DNA from: Sipunculus nudus
Taxonomy: Eukaryota; Annelida; Sipuncula; Golfingiida; Sipunculidae
NCBI GenBank assembly: GCA_026874595.1
Contig: CM049311.1
Span: 38,212,676-38,276,675 of the forward strand
DNA: 64,000 nt
Reading direction: 5' to 3'
The position numbers and the translations under genes were made by a program. Below the pieces are notes generated by a model that was not told the DNA's origin, made no database searches, and worked only from the letters and a program-made list of their open reading frames with translations. Below, one piece after another: positions 28,141 to 60,000 of the stretch; the first letter of the stretch is position 1; each line of letters opens with the position of its first letter.

Positions 28141-29323
28141 TTGAAGAATCAGGAGATGTATGAATTATTCATATTGAGATTTACAGAAAAGAATACAATA
28201 TATTTAATATATTAAACTACAACAGGTTATTATGATCAATATAATTATTTCAATAAAATCAATAATCTTTTTCTTTTTTACCCCAGGAATTTATATAAAG
28301 TTTTTTAACTGTGTTATATGTACATAGTAATAAACTGATCCAATTAGCCAATCACAAGGCAGTGGATTTTAAACTGCCTTCTACAGCTAGTATTAAAATG
28401 GGGGTTAATTGAGTTATTCTCTCCCTTGGAATCGAGCAGTGGACCTTGAAGGCTGACGCAGCCCTCTGTGGCAGCCAGGGTATAGCTTTATTCACCAGGG
28501 TCGGTTAAGCCTGTGTCTACTACCTGGTGCGGCCACCAACTTAAAGCAGCAGTCATTAATTTTTTTCTAGCTGGGTATGTACATTTCCTACCTCATATTT
28601 AACTAAATCAGAAACATTACAGTTTTGATCATTTGAGAGATTAGAGTTTAAATTATATTTCAGTTAAACAGTGTTATTTTATTTCCTTTAATTATGCACA
28701 CACTGTTCAGTCCCCATTTCCCCCCAGAATTAGAAAGCAAACTACACTACAACAGGCGCGTGGACCTAAGACCAGGCGGACCCTACCCTTCAGCGACTGG
28801 CTGTATAGTAAAAGGGGTGTAGGACAAAGGCCCACCCTGACAAAAGCCCACCCAGACAAAAGCCCACCGGACAAAAGCCCACCCCAAAAAGTGCAGATCT
28901 GGACAAAAGCCCACCCATGACTTAAATATATAATTAAATAATTTTACAATGTTCTTCTAAAGTTTTTTTTAAATACTACTGTATCATTTTCTAAATGTAT
29001 ATAACATTTTTTATATTAATGATTTAATTAAATAATAATATAATTATATAATTTTACAATGTTTTTCTAAAGTTTTTTTAAATACTACTACTTCATTTTC
29101 TAAATGTATAAAACATTTTTTATATTAATGATTTTAATATGTTACATATTTTATTAGTTTATGTGTTCATATACATGCTTATATATTTATTATGAAGTTA
29201 TCTGTGTTATATGTCTGTGTAGCTTGATAAAACATATATATATAAGTATATATATATATATGTGTATATATATGTTATATTTATATTTTTTATAGATCAT
29301 TTAATAGATCAATATATAATATT

Positions 29324-29600: not shown

Positions 29601-31069
29601 CCTCCACATGTAAACACAGGGCCAAGCACCTGCTGTGTAATATCAAGTAATCCTACAAATCCCCACCAAATAAACACAACAGCTACCTGGACCACGAAAA
29701 CCTTAACGAACCCAATAACCCAAGCTTAATCCAGCTAATTTAAACGGACAAATTTCACACATTATCATTTCAGATTGTACCTGAGGAGAGGGCCGGCTAG
29801 CAAGCTGAACCCACAAAACAGTACTGTAGTGCATCATGAAATGAAGCAAACTATACACATAGTATAATATTATTAATGCTCCCCGTACGGTAGAGCATTT
29901 TCACTGTGATGTATTGAACCTTAATGTATTATATTGATTATATTCATGTATATATATATATATTATATTGTATATATATAATATATAATGGTGTATATTT
30001 CCTGCAAATACAATAATGTGAATAGGCTAAGCAGTTATAATATAAATTATTTGTTAATCATAATAATATAATTTATATTTTAATTATAATTATATATAAT
30101 CTTGATCATTAAGTTCAACACAGGCTCATATACCACACACAGGGGAATGTGACACCAATCTCTTGAGCAATAATCAGGGTAATGAGCTAGCTAGTTTCTG
30201 ATGCGGGTCTCCACAGCTAAAGTTGTGCAATCAAAACAAACACAAACATCAAAGAGATTACCTGGGGTTCTCCTAAACTATTAACTTCATAGTTAAAAGA
30301 AATGTTAAATATATTTTATATATAATATATTATATATTATAAAATAATATAATCATAAAAGAATGATAATTGTACAAAGCGTATATACATGTAATTAAAA
30401 ATCCAATATATTATACATGTATATTTAAGTAAAATTACTATATTAATTATAATTAATATAGAATATTAATATATAATATAATGTATATATATTTCCTGAA
30501 AAAACAATAATAGTAGTGGGTTTTTAGGTAATAGGTATAACATACACTTAAGTTATATATATATATATACTTTTTATATCTGTTTTAGCAGGTTGCAGAC
30601 AGATATATAACAGATATATAAGCATGTATATGAGCACATAAACATATACAATACTTGCCTTTAGTATAAAAAGTGTTATATAAATGATAGAGTAGTATCA
30701 AAACAGAAAAACATCGCAAAATCATTTAGTTTTATATTTTAGTCAAGGGTGGGCTTTTGATCATGGAGGTCTGCGCACTTTTAGGGGTGGGCTTTTTTCC
30801 GGTGGGCTTTTGTCTGGGTGGGATTTTGTCTGTCGCCCCCGTTGACAGAAAGCAATCTGGGTCAAATACACTGCAGCTTTTTCATTCTGCAGTCCCCTGC
30901 TTTAGCTCCAGGCAGTTTTTACAAATCGAAATCATGTTTGTACTCAGAATTTCTGTTCATTATACATCACAACCTTAAGAACAAATTTGCAAAAGCTCGA
31001 CCAAAGATAAATTTAATTTTTTTTGCAGAATGAGATGACACTGTCATATTATTTCCAAGGCGAACACAG

Positions 31070-31810: not shown

Positions 31811-32836
31811 GAACATGTGACATCTAGAATTTCTACTGAAATCATCTGATATTTTAACTTATATTACATGTTGCACGCATGTACTCAATTTTACCTCATT
31901 TCATATTCTGATAGTTTTACAGCTATTGTCTTTTTAACCAGGGCCATGTGGATTCGAAGGTCAGGCTATGCCTGAATATGTCACCCTTTATAAACATTTG
32001 CTTATAAATAATAAATTTGCTGTTAATAAATAAGCGTTGCTGAAGATAAGTGCTGTCGAAACACATTCATACATGTAAGTAAAGTTATTAAAAACTTATT
32101 TCCATCATTATATGATGTAAATCATCAACCATTTTTTAAACTTTTTAGATAAATGATGTCATCATTGACACCATAGAAACGATGTGATTTTTAATTTAAT
32201 GGGTAAATATGCAAAGTTTCAAAGGAAATATAAATTCGGAGTAAAATCTCAGATAACAGCTGCAAAATAAAATAGAGAATTAACCATGAGGATTAATCAT
32301 GCTTAATTCTTATTACGTGACAACATATATACTATTTTTTACATTTGTAGGAGGCAGACAGCTGTGTGGCAACCAATCTTCAAAAAAGGGGAAGAACACC
32401 CGCTTAAATCTAAGACAGCATCTTTGGCCATGGACAGAGTTCTCATTGTGGAAGAAACAGACACCGATATCAGTTGCGGTATACCGTGTCCTTACTCTTT
32501 GCAGCCTAATTGTAGTTTTATACTGCGTGTATGTGATCAAATATAAGCTGCGTGTGCACTTAGAATAACGCTTATCATTACAAATTATCCTGAAATTTAA
32601 TATGGTCTTTTCTTCTAAGTCTGTTGTTGAGTTGAAATTAAAATTGTTGCATGAACGTGATCGAAAAAGATTAGAAATGACACATTGCATTAGATTTCCA
32701 TCTTGCACCAACGGACTAAAAAAAACAGGGCAAAGCTACACATGGTACTTCATTGACGGATAAACCGTCATGTTTTGCAAGTTTCAATTAATCTTCCTTG
32801 CATCATACCAACAATTCACTGCAGTCTCATATTTGT

Positions 32837-33250
32837 TGTAACGGGTTGACATGAAAGCGGACCGAACTGTCTCGCTAGTGAAGCGGTTGGTACGCCAGAC
32901 TTGTGCGCCACCGTTATGGGTTCGAATCCCGGATCGGCCCAATGTTTTCCCCTGAACAATTTGTCTTCGTTACAAAACGGGGGCTCGTCCGGGATGACGG
33001 TAAAACTTTGTGGCCCAGGGAATAAGCTTACCAAAGTGTGACTTATGGGATAATTAGTCTTGTTCTGATAGCAGAACGCTTTTAAGAAGGGGTGTGTTAC
33101 GGTGTGCCATGAAAGCGGACCGAACTGTCTCGCTAGTGAAGCTTGCTTTACTGGCGAAGCGGTTGGTACGCCGGACTTGTGCGCCACCGTTATGGGTTCG
33201 AATTCCGGATCGGCCCAATGTTTTCCCCTGAATAATTTGTCTTCGTAACA
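32837..33250 (+). mobile_element. Miniature LTR retrotransposon (TRIM-like) with tRNA-like LTRs
   Basis: Two direct repeats (32837-32974, 138 bp; 33095-33250, 156 bp) flank only 120 bases. Both start TGT.ACG and end CGT.ACA; TTGT flanks both sides (32833-32836, 33251-33254). Three bases after the left repeat, CGGGGGCTCGTCCGGGAT (32978-32995) matches 17 of 18 bases of the primer-binding site complementary to tRNA-Pro, as known in several LTR elements. Before the right repeat is a purine tract AAGAAGGGG (33084-33092). There is no Gag or Pol. The LTRs differ by about eight substitutions plus an 18-base insertion. Each LTR holds a tRNA-like block with a Pol III B box (GGTTCGAATCC in the left copy); the right copy also has TGGCGAAGCGG, an exact A-box consensus. 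Confidence 0.8.
32978..32995 (+). promoter_or_regulatory. Primer-binding site, tRNA-Pro type
   Basis: CGGGGGCTCGTCCGGGAT differs from the complement of the 3' end of tRNA-Pro only at its first base (C for T). It lies three bases inside the left LTR, the expected position for minus-strand priming. Confidence 0.75.
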
Positions 33251-33257
33251 TTGTTCA

Positions 33258-33860
33258 ATGATCAAATTGAGCAAACAGAGTCCATATAGCGTATATATAT
33301 ATATGCTGAGGATGGTCAGATACGAAAATGCTAATGAATATCTGGCTGAATCACGCTTGCCTGCATTTATAAATAAATGGGCTTCCGGCTGTGCCAGCCA
33401 GTGTTTTTTCACCTCCATTTACACGAGAAACTGCTTGCATTGGCGATATCCCGCATTAAAAACACAATGCAGCTCCTTAAACATTGTATATACTGTGTTG
33501 CTGTGCTCAGGATGCATAGTCACTTGGCAATGGGTCTTAATTCATGACACATTTTCACTTCGGAAGGGTAATGTTTTCATGGACACATTAATTAATTTAG
33601 AAATATTTCAACAACCTGATGATCCGTATGAAGTTGAACTTATTAACAGATCGAAACCATGCTTAATATTTTTTCTCCTGTCAAGGAAACAAAAAATATA
33701 TAAAGATATATGCTCCTTGAGTCAGAAGTTTCTTTCATATTGCTATTGTAATAATTCACATAAACACACTATGTTTGAACTATGTTTATATTTACATACT
33801 ATATTAGTTAACATGTTTGAAGGTTTTGTTATAAACAGGAATTGCTTGACTGTAAGCTAG
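33258..33860 (+). CDS. Unrecognised 200-codon open frame after the TRIM element
   Basis: An open frame with ATG at 33258 and TAG at 33858-33860, long for such A+T-rich DNA. The product is rich in Cys, Tyr, Ile and Leu, with a hydrophobic stretch VYTVLLCSGCIVTWQWVLI and a basic RKQKIYKD patch. No family was recognised and no splice-site signal was identified. It could be a relic mobile-element gene or chance; no Kozak-like or promoter signal supports it. Confidence 0.2.
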   Translation: MIKLSKQSPYSVYIYMLRMVRYENANEYLAESRLPAFINKWASGCASQCFFTSIYTRNCLHWRYPALKTQCSSLNIVYTVLLCSGCIVTWQWVLIHDTFSLRKGNVFMDTLINLEIFQQPDDPYEVELINRSKPCLIFFLLSRKQKIYKDICSLSQKFLSYCYCNNSHKHTMFELCLYLHTILVNMFEGFVINRNCLTVS

Positions 33861-52589: not shown

Positions 52590-55500
52590 AACAAGTGACC
52601 CATGGGTCATGACGCTCAGCCGACTGACATGTTGATAATATGTCCTTGCACAGACAACTAATTAAGATAGGTGGCATCATTGTTCATGCATATTAGCTTA
52701 AGTTCATCAAGACCCATAAGCACAACAAATTTGATGACAATCCAACCAGCCTTTCATGAGGAATCTGGTAATTTGAGTGTATTTTGCATTATTTCTGGGG
52801 TGCTCAAACATACCCCAAAACTTTGAGAATATAGGTCACTGTGACCCAATTTCAGGTTTCTGGGGAGAACTTTTGAGGAACTCTCAGCATGTCAAGTTAG
52901 AAGAATCTGTGCCCCATGGTTATGATTTGTGCCCTACTTTAGTATCAAATTTTCAATTATTCTGAGGGGTGCTTATAAGCCCTATAGCTCAGAAAATATG
53001 GGTAACAGAGACCTAAATTCAAGTTTCAAAGGAGACTTTTCACAGATCTCCCTGGTTATCAAGTTTGAAGATTCTAGGACAGATGTTTAAAATTTGAGCT
53101 CTGTTAAGGGATGACCGCATCTTTGAAGGTCTCAAAAATAGAGAAAAAAAATGTGTTGAAATTTTAGAAAAATTAAGGTGGTGCCACAAGTCCGCAAGAA
53201 CTGATGAAACACTCCATGATTCATTGGCATGCAAAGAATCATGGTGATCAATGCAATAGATATTTAGATAATGGAGCTTTTGTATCAAATATTTAGTTAT
53301 TCTAGGAGGTACTTCTAAGCCCCATAGCTCGGAGGATATGGGTAACAGAGACCTAATTTCAGTTTTCCAATGATTTTTTTATGAATCTCCCAGGATGTCA
53401 AGAAAAAAGATTCCAGGTCAAACAGTTTTGATTTGTGCCCTGTTAACAGACGACCACATCTATGAAGGTCTCAAAAATTAATGATGAAAATGCATAAAAA
53501 CTCAAAGAAGTCCAGCTGGCACCACCAGTCTGCAGGAACTGATGAAACCCTCCATGATGCATATGCATGCAAAGAATAATGCCAATCAATGCACTAAATG
53601 TTCAGATACCAGAGCTTTTGTATAAAACTTGATGGCATCTTTTAAGGTCTCAAAAATAGAGAAAAACTAGAATATGGGTAGTCGACAAGGGACTGTGTAT
53701 CCGCCAAAATGGGAGTGGAACAGGTGAAGTGAGGCATGGATTGAGTGGCAAGAGGAAATAGAGTGAGGTGTGTTGCACATTAGCATGGATGTATGTGGCT
53801 GAAATGTGTATGTAGGTTGCACCACCTACCACAAAATCCAGAAAGCTGTCCAAGTTGTATACATATGGAAAATTTTAGGCAGATAAGTCAAACCACTACA
53901 TGTATATGAGTGATTTTAGCCCACAGCAGACAAACAGAAGGACTTGTATGAAAATTGTGGCAGGTGGCGCCGCAAATTTTGTGTATGATTAAGAGCTGTG
54001 AGATCCATACACATGCAAAATTTCAGGGGGATATGTTCAACCAGTCCTGAGATATAAACCTGAATGTCTGCAGCTTTAACAGAAATGTAGGTGGCACCAC
54101 CTGCCAAAAAAATAGATATAATGTATAAACATGCAAAATTTTAGGCAGGCAAGTCAAACACTACTGAGATATGAGTGATTTAAGCCCGCGGCAGACAAAC
54201 GGACAGACACTGTGCAAAAATGGTTGCAGGTGGCCACTCCAGTTTTGTGCATGTTAAAGAGCTATGTGAGATCTATACACATGAAAATTTTTGCCCAATC
54301 GGTCAAACGGTTCCCGAGATGTGAGCTTTGATGCAGTGTAAACTAGAATGTAGATGGTGCCACCTCTCATAAAATCAAGAAAGCTGATCTAGATGTATAA
54401 AACTGCAAAATTTTAAGCAGATATGTCAAACCACTGCCGAGATATGAGTGATTTTATCCCACGGCAGACAAACAGATGGACACTGTGAAAAAATGGTTGC
54501 AGGTGGCACCACCAGTTTTGCGTATGATAAAGAGCTGTGTGAGATCGATACACATGCAAATTTTCAGGAAGACATGTCAAACCAGTCTGGAGAAATAAGC
54601 ATGGATGTCTGCAGTGTGAACATGAATGTAGGTGGCGCCACCTGTCATAAAATCAAAAAAGCTATCCAGGATGTATATGCATGCTGAATTTCAGGTGAAT
54701 TAGTCCAACCACTGCAGAGATATGAGTGATTTTAACCCAAGGCAGATGAACAGGTGGACACTGTGCAAACATGGTTGCAGGTTGAGCCACCATTTTTTTG
54801 TATGTTATAAAGAGCCACCATTTTTTTGTATGTTATAAAGCTATCCAAGGGCTACATTTGTACAAAAAATTTTTCCTGATCAGTCAAATGGTTCCTGAGA
54901 TATGTGGGTTTATGTGTGGAAACGGACACACAAATGGACACTGGGCAGAGAGAAAAAGGTCAGAGGTCAACACCAATTGGTAAGGCACCAGTTCACAGCT
55001 GACCCAATTCTTGGTGTAAGTTTTGGAAAAATCAGTCCAGTAGTCTCAGAGGAGTTCTCCAGAAACATTAGCGGTGGTGGCAGAGGCAGAACCCGGTCAA
55101 AAACATAGTATCCGCAAAACTTTGTTTTGGCGGATACAAAAATCGTAATAAAAATCGAAAAATACAGGTGGCTCCACCATTCTGCAAAAACTGATGTAAC
55201 ACCCCATTATCAATATCCATGCAAAGAATCACGGTGATCAATGCATTAGTTGTTCAGATACTAGAGCATTTGTAACAAATTTCTCATTATTCTAGGGGGT
55301 ACTTCGGAGCCCCACAGCTTGAAGAATATAGGTAACAGAGACCTAATTTTATCATGGACCTATCTGGATGTAAAGTTAGAAGATTCCAGATCCAGCATTT
55401 ATGTTCACAGATGATGGCATCTTTTAAGGTCTCAAAATATATAAAAAAATTGTAAAAAAAAAAAATACAAGTGGCACCACCAGTCTGCAGAAACTGATGA

Positions 55501-57061: not shown

Positions 57062-60000
57062 CTGAAAATAGAAAATACAAGGAAGTTATTACTCTTGTTT
57101 CAACATACTACATAAGTCTAAGTATGCAATAAGTTTTTGTCCTACCAAAATCAACTGACAAAAGGGTAATGATGCTCAGCTGACTAGCATGACATTATAG
57201 GCTAATATTCACCTCAGAAATTTTATCATCTGAAAACCAAATTGAGATTAACTTCAGATGTGATCTTGACCTTAGACCTTCTAAAATCCAAAGTTGTGGG
57301 TTCTTTCTCAAGCAATGGGTCACACATATATATAGAGTGAATCGAAATCATGACTGGTCTATAAAGATATGCAATACTTCATATGTTATGGGGTTTACAA
57401 TAATACTGTATTATTTGGCTGATTTGACCTTGAAGATCAAGTTATGATCACCAGTTCTTGAACTCCCCTGAGAAATTGGTTGAAACAATTTGTCTGTCAA
57501 ATTTGAGGAAAATATGCCATTCTTCAAAACACAGACAGTTGAAAATTGGGGGTCACAATCCTATATTTCAACTGATATGACACTGAGGATCATGGTTTTT
57601 AAATCATATGAAAACTTGTAAAAACAATTTGTGTGTATTCAATGTGTGGGAACAAAGATGCAGTACTTCAAAAGTTATTTGTTCACAAGAAAACCTATAT
57701 TTTTCAGGATCAGACCTTGACAGTCAAGGTCATCAGTTTTCAAATTCATCTGCAATACTGACTGGAGCAAACTTTGAATCCAATTTGAGGAAAACATATG
57801 CACATCTTCAAACATTGTGTGACTTCCATGGTGCTCAAAAGCATGTTTTTGCTGTATAGTTCGCAGAAGATAGGTCACTTTGGGTGTCTTATGAGATTTT
57901 ACCAAGATCTCCCTAGATTTTTAGTTAGGAGTTTCAAGGTGTAATGGTTATGATTTGTGCCCTGCTAATGGATGGTTGGATGATCAGTCAGTCAGACATT
58001 TGGACAGGAGGAGAACGGACAAAGACCCATTGCTAAGGCTCAGCATGAAAAATTCAACTAGCTAAAAAACTAGAATACGGGTAGTCGACAAGTGACTACA
58101 TGTATCCGCCAAAATCAGAGTAGGACGGGTGAAGTGAGGCATGGATTGAGTGGCAAGGGGAAATAGAGTTACATGTGTTACATATTAGAATGGATCTGTG
58201 CAACGTAAACATGATTGTAGGTGGCGCCACCTGTTATTTGAATACACATGCAAAATTTCAGGTGAAAAAATCAAACCAATGCAGAGATATGAGTGCTTTT
58301 AACCCAAGGCAGACAAACAGATGGACGCTGTGCAAAAATTGCTGCAGGTGGCGCCATCATTTTTGTGTATGTTATTAAACTTTCCAAGGGCTACATTTAT
58401 GTAAATTTTTTTTCCTGATTGGTCAAACAGTTCCAGAGATATAAGCATTAATGTCTGCAGCATGAACGTGAATGTAGGTGGCGCCACCTGTCATAAAATC
58501 AAGAAAGCTATGCGGGATGTATACACATGCCAAATTTCAGGTAATTTGGTCAAAAGACTGCAGAGGTATGAGTGATTTTAACCCAAGGCAGACAAACAGA
58601 TGGACACCGTGCAAAACTGGCTGCAGGTGGCACCACCATTTTTGTATATGTTATAAAGCTATCCAAGGGCTACATTTGTGTAAAATTTTTTCCCTGACTG
58701 GTCGAACGAGTCCGGAGATATAAGCATGGATGTCTACAGCGTGAACGTGAATGTAGTTGGTGCCTCCTGTCATAAAATCAAGAAAGCTATGCGGGATGTA
58801 TACACATGCCAAATTTCAGGTAATTTGGTCAAACCACTGCTAAGATATGAGTGATTTTAGTCCAAGGCAGCCAAACAGATGGATGCTGTGCAAAAATGGC
58901 TGCAGGTGGCGCCACCATTTATATATATGTTTTAAAGCTATCAAAGGGCTACATTTGTGTAAATTTTTTTCCCTGACTGGTCAAATGGTTCCCAAGATAT
59001 GAGCTTGGATGTCTGCAGCATTAACTTGAATGTAGGTGGCGCCACCTGTCATAAAATCAAGAAAGCTATCTGGGATGTATACACATGCCGAATTTTAGGT
59101 GAATTAGTCAAACGACTGCAGAGATATGAGTGATTTTAACCCAAGGCAGATGAACAGATGGACACTGCAAACATGGTTGCAGGTGGTGCCACCTTATTTT
59201 GTGTATGTTATAAAGCTATCCAAGGGCTACATTCATGTAAAAAAATTTTCCAGATCGGTCAAAGGGTTCCCGAGATATGAGGGTTTATGTGTGGAAACAG
59301 ACGCACAAACGGACGCTGGGTAGAGAGGAAAGGTCAGAGGTCAAGGCCACTTGGTAAGGCACCAGTTCACATGTGACCTGATAATTTGTGTAAGTTTCGG
59401 AAAAATCCGTCCAGTAGTCTCAGAGGAGTTCTCCGGAAACGAACGCCGCCGCTACGGCGGAACCCGGTCAAAAACATAATCATTTAGTGGTTTCACAAAG
59501 ACCATTACTGCATATGCACAATGAATGGATGAGTCTACATGTGTGTTACTTTGTTGGTACAAAATCATTATCAATGCCTTTGTTTAAGAGTAAGCCTGGT
59601 GCTCACTAACTTTAAATGCTTAAGATTTAGGGTGCTTCTCTATATACCAGTACGCTTTATGCCATGCCTTTGCTGCACAGTAAAAATCCAACCAGTTAAT
59701 AAGCCATGTTATATCTCAATGAGTGTGTATGCTGCACGGCAAAGGCATACAAATGTTTGTATGGGAAAAGACTGGCCATGCAGCAAACACATGCATTTGC
59801 AGCACAGCAGAAACTGCAACATACATGAAAAAAACCAGCCTTTCTCCTAAGGAAGGTTGCTGAATACCATAAAACCTACTGATATAATTATCATTAAGAT
59901 GGTCTAAACAGTTAACCATTTACTTTATTAGACTGAAAGTAATAATTTCTTTTGATCCATTCCATACTTAAATATCCTACTAGTCGAAGGATAGTTAAAG

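Follow-up and report, generated by a model that had tools for sequence, protein, structure and literature searches.

A Helenus-type miniature LTR element of Sipunculus nudus, its candidate Gypsy-like helper and inverted derivatives joined within a primer tRNA-Pro homology

Introduction

The 414-bp element located in the window, i.e., in the whole stretch of 64,000 nucleotides of Sipunculus nudus DNA analysed here, is quite probably an old copy of a Helenus-type miniature LTR element (TRIM), whose RNA would be made by Pol III, moved with the help of a longer element called element B, primed by host tRNA-Pro and occasionally converted into foldback derivatives. The class of the element was already described in 2024, and the new part consists of the link with a helper and of the inverted derivatives. 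With respect to the TRIM itself, the family offers a well-documented case, provided with a candidate helper, for a class whose name dates only from 2024. Of greater interest are the inverted derivatives, as they look like natural integrated products of the copying of a primer tRNA past m1A58, a process otherwise encountered here only in retrovirus biochemistry. They also provide a concrete reason why the resemblance of a Pol III promoter to the primer tRNA might be hazardous or formative for an LTR element, and the Helenus families in which the B-box region matches the T-arm of the primer are predicted to bear foldbacks, the other families being predicted to have none.

The Helenus elements (TRIMp3) were introduced by Kojima in 2024 as TRIMs with a tRNA-derived sequence in their LTRs; they are distributed in six animal phyla, with bivalves among the hosts, and measure 311-1263 bp (PMC10886601). 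According to the same description, the animal Helenus elements are associated with 4-bp duplications and with PBS types common to Gypsy elements, the primers of the bivalve Helenus include tRNA-Pro, and tandem arrays are noted for LTR-11_DR (PMC10886601).

Structural Organization of the Window Element

The element consists of a 5' LTR of 138 bp (32837-32974), an internal domain of 120 bp (32975-33094) and a 3' LTR of 156 bp (33095-33250; TGTTACG...CGTAACA), all read on the forward strand, as are the other features given below. A target-site duplication TTGT, to which no strand applies, frames the element at 32833-32836 on the left and 33251-33254 on the right. The LTR ends are of the TG...CA type and form a 7-bp inverted repeat. 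The internal domain carries near its start a tRNA-Pro primer-binding site (PBS; CGGGGGCTCGTCCGGGAT, 32978-32995) and near its end a polypurine tract (PPT; 33084-33092), after which come TG and the 3' LTR. The element lies at the coordinates stated in the first-pass annotation, with the TG...CA ends, the TTGT flanks, the internal domain of 120 bp and the purine tract noted there, and its 17/18 match of the PBS to tRNA-Pro was reproduced; the length of 138 bp that it gives for the repeat holds for the 5' LTR and fails for the 3' LTR.

The difference in length between the two LTRs corresponds to a single 18-bp block, present in the 156-bp form between two A-box-like repeats and missing from the 138-bp form. 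The first of these repeats (33134-33144), as read from the sequence, is an additional A-box-like repeat of the long LTR form with one mismatch, and the second (33152-33162) is the A box of the 3' LTR; the short form looks like the result of a deletion between the two. The LTRs of the window copy diverge by 7.2%, and none of the 10 ORFs of the window gave a Pfam match above the cut-off.

The Putative Pol III Promoter of the LTR

In the 5' LTR, the A box TAGTGAAGCGG (32876-32886) is exact to TRGYNNARNNG and the B box GGTTCGAATCC (32919-32929) is exact to GGTTCGANTCC, the latter lying in a 16-nt stretch, GGGTTCRAATCCCGGA (32918-32933), which is common to the LTR and to the T-arm of the host tRNA-Pro. 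A TTTT that resembles a Pol III terminator (32945-32948) is proposed as the R/U5 border. The 3' LTR similarly exhibits an exact A box (TGGCGAAGCGG, 33152-33162) and a TTTT of the same type (33221-33224); a B box had been annotated in each LTR, and the one of the 3' LTR (33195-33205) differs from GGTTCGAATCC by one mismatch. A scan of both strands of the window yielded a single place where an exact A box precedes an exact B box by 20-70 nt, and 100 simulated sequences of 64 kb yielded none. No intact tRNA was recognized in the block, either by ARAGORN with default settings or by Rfam above its cut-off, the best weak Rfam match being tRNA-Sec with 15.4 bits vs. a cut-off of 47; when the ARAGORN threshold was lowered to 50%, matches were called on either strand, and this run was disregarded as uninformative.

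Of the 85 family LTRs used for the statistics on the promoter boxes, a set to which L036 belongs, 67 have an exact A box and 56 an exact B box, the distance between them amounts to 43 nt in 79, and a TTTT occurs 3' of the B box in 79. By inspection, the columns which distinguish the subfamilies fall outside the A box, the core of the B box and the TTTT. From these features we infer that the block is a Pol III promoter, with the TTTT as a terminator that would set the R/U5 border.

Alternatively, the tRNA-like block could be a passenger, the relic of a SINE insertion, in an LTR from which the RNA is made by Pol II, a reading that appears doubtful while keeping some chance of being right. It agrees with the block not being called as a tRNA, with the position of a TTTT inside the 5' LTR, where a Pol III transcript would be truncated, and with the loss of the A box region from one LTR in L017 and L033; in addition, CATAAAAG, which occurs near the LTR start in 56 of the 85 LTRs and is represented by CATGAAAG in both LTRs of the window copy, could be a TATA box. 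However, the regular spacing of the two boxes, the frequency of the exact boxes and of the TTTT, and the position of the subfamily-variable columns all argue against a mere passenger, as does the rarity of AATAAA (3 of the 85 LTRs). A Pol III promoter is accordingly kept as the preferred reading of the block, and the miniature LTR element with tRNA-like promoter boxes in its LTRs, as proposed in the first-pass annotation, is backed both by its structure and by its copies in the genome.

Element B, a Candidate Helper

In two loci (L028 and L070), the end of a longer LTR, designated LTR-B, replaces the 5' LTR and is joined to the tRNA-Pro PBS and to the TRIM internal domain, and a third hybrid (C1:106342186) is recognized by its B-type spacer letters only. 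A search with LTR-B gave 3998 first-look candidates, of which 40 were scored; seven of the eight loci fetched downstream of a 5' LTR-B possess a common 5' internal region which starts at a tRNA-Pro PBS. A 3-kb slice taken 2-5 kb inside one copy of element B contains Integrase_H2C2 (2e-13) and rve (1e-8), followed by RVT_1 (2e-25), together with Integrase_p58_C (2.6e-5) and RNase H (2.7e-4), both below the cut-off. This location of the integrase upstream of the reverse transcriptase was seen in slices of a single copy, in which nesting could produce the same order. Motif TATAAATAG occurs in three of the four stretches upstream, and AATAAA within LTR-B. LTR-B is regarded as a Pol II-type LTR and element B as a long Gypsy-like element. 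The domain order seen in this one copy recalls that of the Gmr1-like Gypsy elements.

Hybrids joined at the PBS imply that the RNAs of element B and of the TRIM were copied in the same particle, which makes element B the best candidate and the likely helper of the TRIM. None of the 30 loci obtained with the internal-domain query contained an autonomous element sharing the whole TRIM internal domain.

A three-part chimera of the TRIM and element B was also distinguished by eye (L101/L130; G000:C12:52331150-52332562), in which an LTR of family A (LTR-A) passes, a short distance beyond AAATGG, into sequence similar to the part of LTR-B just past its TATA box, the order continuing with LTR-B, a PBS and an inverted LTR-A.

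The Primer-Binding Site and the Primer tRNA-Pro

The host tRNA-Pro genes carry a 3' end that matches the PBS, and GGGTTCRAATCCCGGA is common to tRNA-Pro and to the LTR. Letter counts on 92 family internal starts gave T as the first base of the PBS in 80; 49 of them have an exact 12-mer at bases 2-13, where no other form is common. Bases 14-17, which still belong to the 18-nt primer copy, represent the sole block with two common forms, namely GGGA, the tRNA-Pro complement (44/92), and AACG (26/92). Base 18 is a T in 91 of the 92 copies, at a place where the search pattern favoured T, and it is at this base, adjoining position 58, that the ordinary copies depart from the tRNA complement. A survey of 84 LTR-PBS junctions, taken from loci that were not picked by the tRNA pattern, yielded 49 GGGAT, 29 AACGT, three junctions that extend past position 58 (L037, L071 and L108, the last assigned by eye) and three others.

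A search with the T-arm and acceptor of tRNA-Pro resulted in 165 matches with at most two mismatches, including 29 exact ones. Twenty-eight of the exact matches and eight of the 45 listed one-mismatch matches, hand-picked away from tRNA clusters, were fetched, i.e., 36 loci; the remaining exact match belongs to the DNA flanking L037. The 36 loci include four tRNA-Pro genes (L120, L128, L153 and L156), one with an AGG, one with a CGG and two with a UGG anticodon. Clusters of tRNA-Pro-like sequences were observed at G000:C14:19081324-19319683 and C5:41589675-41699110, many of the C14 copies being spaced by about 3.65 kb.

The Inverted Derivatives

Inverted loci account for 28 of the 36 fetched matches, or 26 distinct loci once two local duplicates (L145 and L147) are removed. 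In all of them the PBS is followed by GGGATTYGAACC or a close variant and by the reverse complement of a TRIM LTR, which reads from the B box toward the first base. All 26 junctions are located in one and the same 16-nt homology between tRNA-Pro and the LTR, with the PBS running past its normal 18-nt end. The inverted arm extends to LTR base 1 in 17 of the 26 loci, and in L113, L146 and L151 it runs on into a reversed internal domain. Directly across the PBS, a forward family-A LTR is found in 20 of the 26, and the forward LTR is LTR-B in L118, L130, L131 and L146 (the last by eye); in L122 the LTR end is broken, and a forward LTR is missing beside the PBS in L160.

Two candidate ends could be recognized in nine of the 26 inverted loci. 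Four of these possess exact outer 4-bp duplications (L112, L115, L117 and L157, with TGGC, CCTT, AGGA and ATAT, the ATAT lying in AT-rich DNA), L125 matches at 3/4 positions, and four match at 1-2/4 positions; the ends are poorly placed in L146, L148 and L155 (1-2/4), and L116, with its left side in an array, shows no duplication. The other 17 loci yielded no two ends; in most of the inverted loci, at least one end is decayed, missing or in an array. Counted as exact matches over the whole genome, the LTR end followed by the PBS and the ordinary internal start GGGATGACGG occurs 116 times and the PBS followed by an inverted LTR 14 times (two of them forming a local duplicate pair, and all among the fetched loci), two counts that are not directly comparable since the inverted pattern is longer than the ordinary one; the PBS followed by tRNA-Pro letters occurs once. 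In L124, L127 and L159 the PBS runs into the tRNA-Pro complement itself, and for a shorter distance in L154, where the DNA on the left is not clearly LTR.

One may ask whether the inverted elements belong to a single transposing foldback family instead of resulting from repeated accidents. L112 and L122, which have the closest inverted arms (5.2%) and the same TTTGAACC variant and local motif, as well as the two locally duplicated loci L145 and L147, speak in favour of such a family, which nevertheless seems unlikely: the inverted arms of different loci, which cover LTR bases 1-115 only, diverge by a median of 12.7% (n=13) vs. 10.1% among ordinary LTRs, they carry different subfamily letters, and the left LTRs derive from A and, in the four loci mentioned above, from B. 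Given this divergence, most of the inverted elements look like separate births. Within the same element, the inverted arm differs from the other arm by 5.0-14.8% (five cases). L112 and L122 also exhibit the A57-type T-loop letter of tRNA-Pro(AGG), which is only suggestive of an origin from this tRNA, as the same letter could result from mutation within the LTR.

An origin at the DNA level, either by head-on insertion of one TRIM into another or by recombination at the palindromic B box, is unlikely, in spite of the large number of TRIMs, with their arrays and nested insertions, of the occurrence of some inverted loci in arrays (L116 and L151), and of L095 and L119, which fold back at the B-box palindrome without any PBS. 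If a whole element had inserted into another, a further duplication would be expected at the junction. The 26 junctions all fall in the same homology, after a PBS extended by tRNA-Pro letters which are absent from ordinary copies. Moreover, the outer ends of L112, L115, L117 and L157 are U3 starts bordered by the 4-bp duplication, and L124, L127 and L159 run on into tRNA-Pro itself. A misdirection of reverse transcription is thus retained as the likeliest source of the inverted elements, for which the junctions and the outer duplications are observed and the order of the steps is proposed below.

Other junctions were noticed in the same loci. In L095 (80-181) and L119 (246-345), two LTR arms face each other at the TTCGAA of the B box and are not separated by a PBS; the B box is self-complementary and can fold on itself, and a tRNA is not the sole route to inversion at these two loci. 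In L124, at about 350-450 in the orientation of the PBS, a tRNA-Pro copy running toward the 5' end joins LTR-B at a common CCTAGAC, a junction that may correspond to a second kind of template switch. As judged from titles and the openings of abstracts, inverted elements of the type described here are absent from the papers found in the open-access PMC literature, to which the search was directed.

Proposed Mechanism of Replication and Inversion

According to the mechanism proposed here, the A and B boxes in the 5' LTR would recruit Pol III, which, by rule of thumb, would start upstream of the A box, at about LTR base 45 in the long form; it would leak through the first TTTT and end at that of the 3' LTR, so that the RNA would begin and finish with R. 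As a non-coding element, the TRIM would be moved in trans, its RNA being packaged with that of element B and reverse transcribed from host tRNA-Pro. Integration of the product would then duplicate 4 bp of the target, which is often an (AT)n tract, both the duplications and the targets being observed features of the family.

Occasionally, the plus-strand strong-stop DNA would copy the tRNA-Pro primer beyond position 58. Owing to the complementarity of its end, ...GGGATTCGAACC, to the B box, this DNA could anneal to the B-box region of the TRIM's own RNA and prime there, and priming at the PPT would define a second U3 end, leading to a foldback with U3 at both ends. Such a product could be integrated because the LTR ends are inverted repeats.

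In HIV-1, the plus-strand strong-stop DNA normally stops before m1A58, the stops at pseudouridine 55 and m5U54 correspond to minor products, and an unmodified tRNA is copied to its end (PMC13191261). The inverted derivatives resemble in this respect the HIV-1 strong-stop DNA copied past primer position 58, either as a minor product or without m1A58, but the read-through of HIV-1 is known from biochemistry and cell culture, whereas that considered here is deduced from integrated genomic copies (PMC13191261). We somewhat favour the view that the tRNA-like promoter has acquired a second, physical role in replication and that the genome holds a fossil record of primer-tRNA read-through; as the B-box region and the primer's T-arm are identical in sequence, a strong-stop DNA extended past base 58 would land on the TRIM RNA. 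This record would include L127 and L159, which both stop (by eye) just before G37, a commonly methylated position that is typically m1G in human tRNAs (PMC5939049).

Distribution of Family A in the Genome

The assembly searched amounts to 1.43 Gb, nearly all of it carried by 17 chromosome-sized contigs of 61-111 Mb, whereas the longest of 18 further contigs inspected measures 1.29 Mb. With the 414-bp element as a query, 46 matches were obtained from 40 scored among 3868 first-look candidates, and 40 of the 46 cover at least query bases 13-412. Forty-one loci were fetched, 39 of them distinct, since L041 is the same as L007 and L036 arose by duplication of a segment of L035. The LTR-internal-LTR order occurs in all 41, a result for which a full-length query selects, and several of these loci consist of LTR-internal-LTR-internal-LTR arrays. 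Depending on the part of the element used as a query, other samples were obtained: the internal domain alone gave 963 candidates, of which 40 were scored and 30 loci fetched (6 overlapping the first sample), with a family-A LTR on the 3' side in 30/30, and the LTR alone gave 3320 candidates, of which 40 were scored, resulting in 31 new places, 20 of them fetched. A PBS, an internal domain or a PPT adjoins the LTR in 17 of these 20, two are solo LTRs, one of them with an ATAT duplication, and one (L101) is ambiguous. The genome copies thus follow the LTR-PBS-PPT order that the first-pass annotation had suggested looking for, and its SINE alternative, according to which a lone repeat with a SINE-like tail and no PBS should prevail, fails in these 17 places.

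Exact 4-bp target-site duplications were found in 18 of the 32 elements with both ends placed, 7 of the 39 having been dropped for unclear ends; when the flanks were shuffled 5000 times, 2.8 were obtained on average and never more than 8. An (AT)n run of 10 or more lies at most 24 bp from the junction in 10 of the 32 elements, whereas the share among random sites is 0.7% in the window and 1.6% in the locus flanks. A chance arrangement of two tRNA-derived SINEs on either side of 120 bp would account for the SINE size of each repeat and for its A and B boxes, but can be dismissed in view of the genome-wide order LTR-PBS-internal-PPT-LTR, the 4-bp duplications outside the pair, the TG...CA ends with their 7-bp inverted repeat, and the only two clear solos among 20 LTR matches, one of them with the ATAT duplication expected of a solo LTR. 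A tRNA-derived SINE in the sense of a single Pol III unit with a tail is similarly ruled out by the LTR pair, the PBS and the 4-bp duplications.

The two LTRs diverge by 8.8% on average within an element (35 two-LTR elements) vs. 10.6% between elements, a value as low as 8.8% being reached in none of 2000 permutations, and only 2 of the 35 LTR pairs are mutual best matches. As judged from these divergences, the family-A copies are old, and some pairs combine LTRs of two subfamilies, which requires recombination; L012 possesses LTRs of two subfamilies and yet a clean ATTA duplication. An apparent surplus of shortened 5' LTRs in the first sample was dropped as an ascertainment effect, since the 5' LTR of the query is itself short, and in the internal-only sample LTRs of both sides are affected by shortening. 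In L025, L030, L035 and L036, a truncated TRIM is included in a longer multi-copy repeat, with flanks that are alike at 85-100% over about 1 kb upstream and at 88-100% over at least about 450 bp downstream.

Relationships with Known TRIM Families

Family A exhibits the examined structural features of animal Helenus and is assigned to this group by its described features. The first-pass annotation had considered the element as possibly undescribed, an idea that does not survive the description in 2024 of TRIMs with tRNA-like LTRs under the name of Helenus (PMC10886601). The likeness to Helenus includes the non-coding two-LTR structure, with a size that falls within the range of the group, and the A and B boxes of the LTR, which are tRNA-like here with no particular source tRNA assigned (PMC10886601). 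It extends to the tRNA-Pro PBS, the PPT, the 4-bp duplication (18/32 exact) and the tandem arrays, and to the existence of Gypsy elements with a matching PBS, to which the Gypsy-like element B, with its common PBS and its hybrids, may correspond here (PMC10886601). In contrast, the hybrids tie the present TRIM to one Gypsy-like element, a link absent from the part of the Helenus description drawn on here, which does not mention either inverted U3-U3 derivatives seeded at the B box or (AT)n targets (PMC10886601). For Helenus, no complementarity of the tRNA-like block to the PBS is reported, whereas the block of family A matches the T-arm of the primer, just beyond the PBS (PMC10886601).

The analogy with Cassandra drawn in the first-pass annotation is backed by the structure and the genome copies: Cassandra is also a TRIM whose LTRs both contain a Pol III promoter and terminator, and it forms long tandem arrays, but it belongs to plants and its promoter derives from the 5S rRNA (PMC7215508, PMC10853983, PMC10886601). 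Cassandra transcripts begin within the 5' LTR and terminate within the 3' LTR (PMC10886601). The window gave no Rfam match above the cut-off, and the region 32830-33260 no 5S match at E up to 5, which speaks against a 5S rRNA-derived LTR.

The biv-TRIM elements from bivalves resemble family A as animal TRIMs with solo LTRs, arrays of the TDRx-I(x-1) type and discordant LTRs attributed to recombination (PMC6934838). They differ by LTRs of 202-218 bp, internal domains of 77-80 bp and a PPT which is mostly GGGGAGA, and their description, in the part used here, includes no clear PBS, no partner and no tRNA-like LTR (PMC6934838). Membership of family A in biv-TRIM is ruled out by its lengths of 156 and 120 bp, its AAGAGGGGG-type PPT and its clear PBS (PMC6934838).

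Other Repeats of the Window

Inverted copies of a 16-bp minisatellite, GGACAAAAGCCCACCC (six copies, and three of its complement), occur at 28822-28916 and 30785-30832 of the window and flank about 1.9 kb with many AT-rich repeats, the whole of which looks like a foldback-type or MITE-like element. Tandem arrays at 53810-54815 and 58242-59242, located 3.4 kb apart, consist of 3.7 and 3.6 copies of similarly reading units, which measure 278 and 279 bp.
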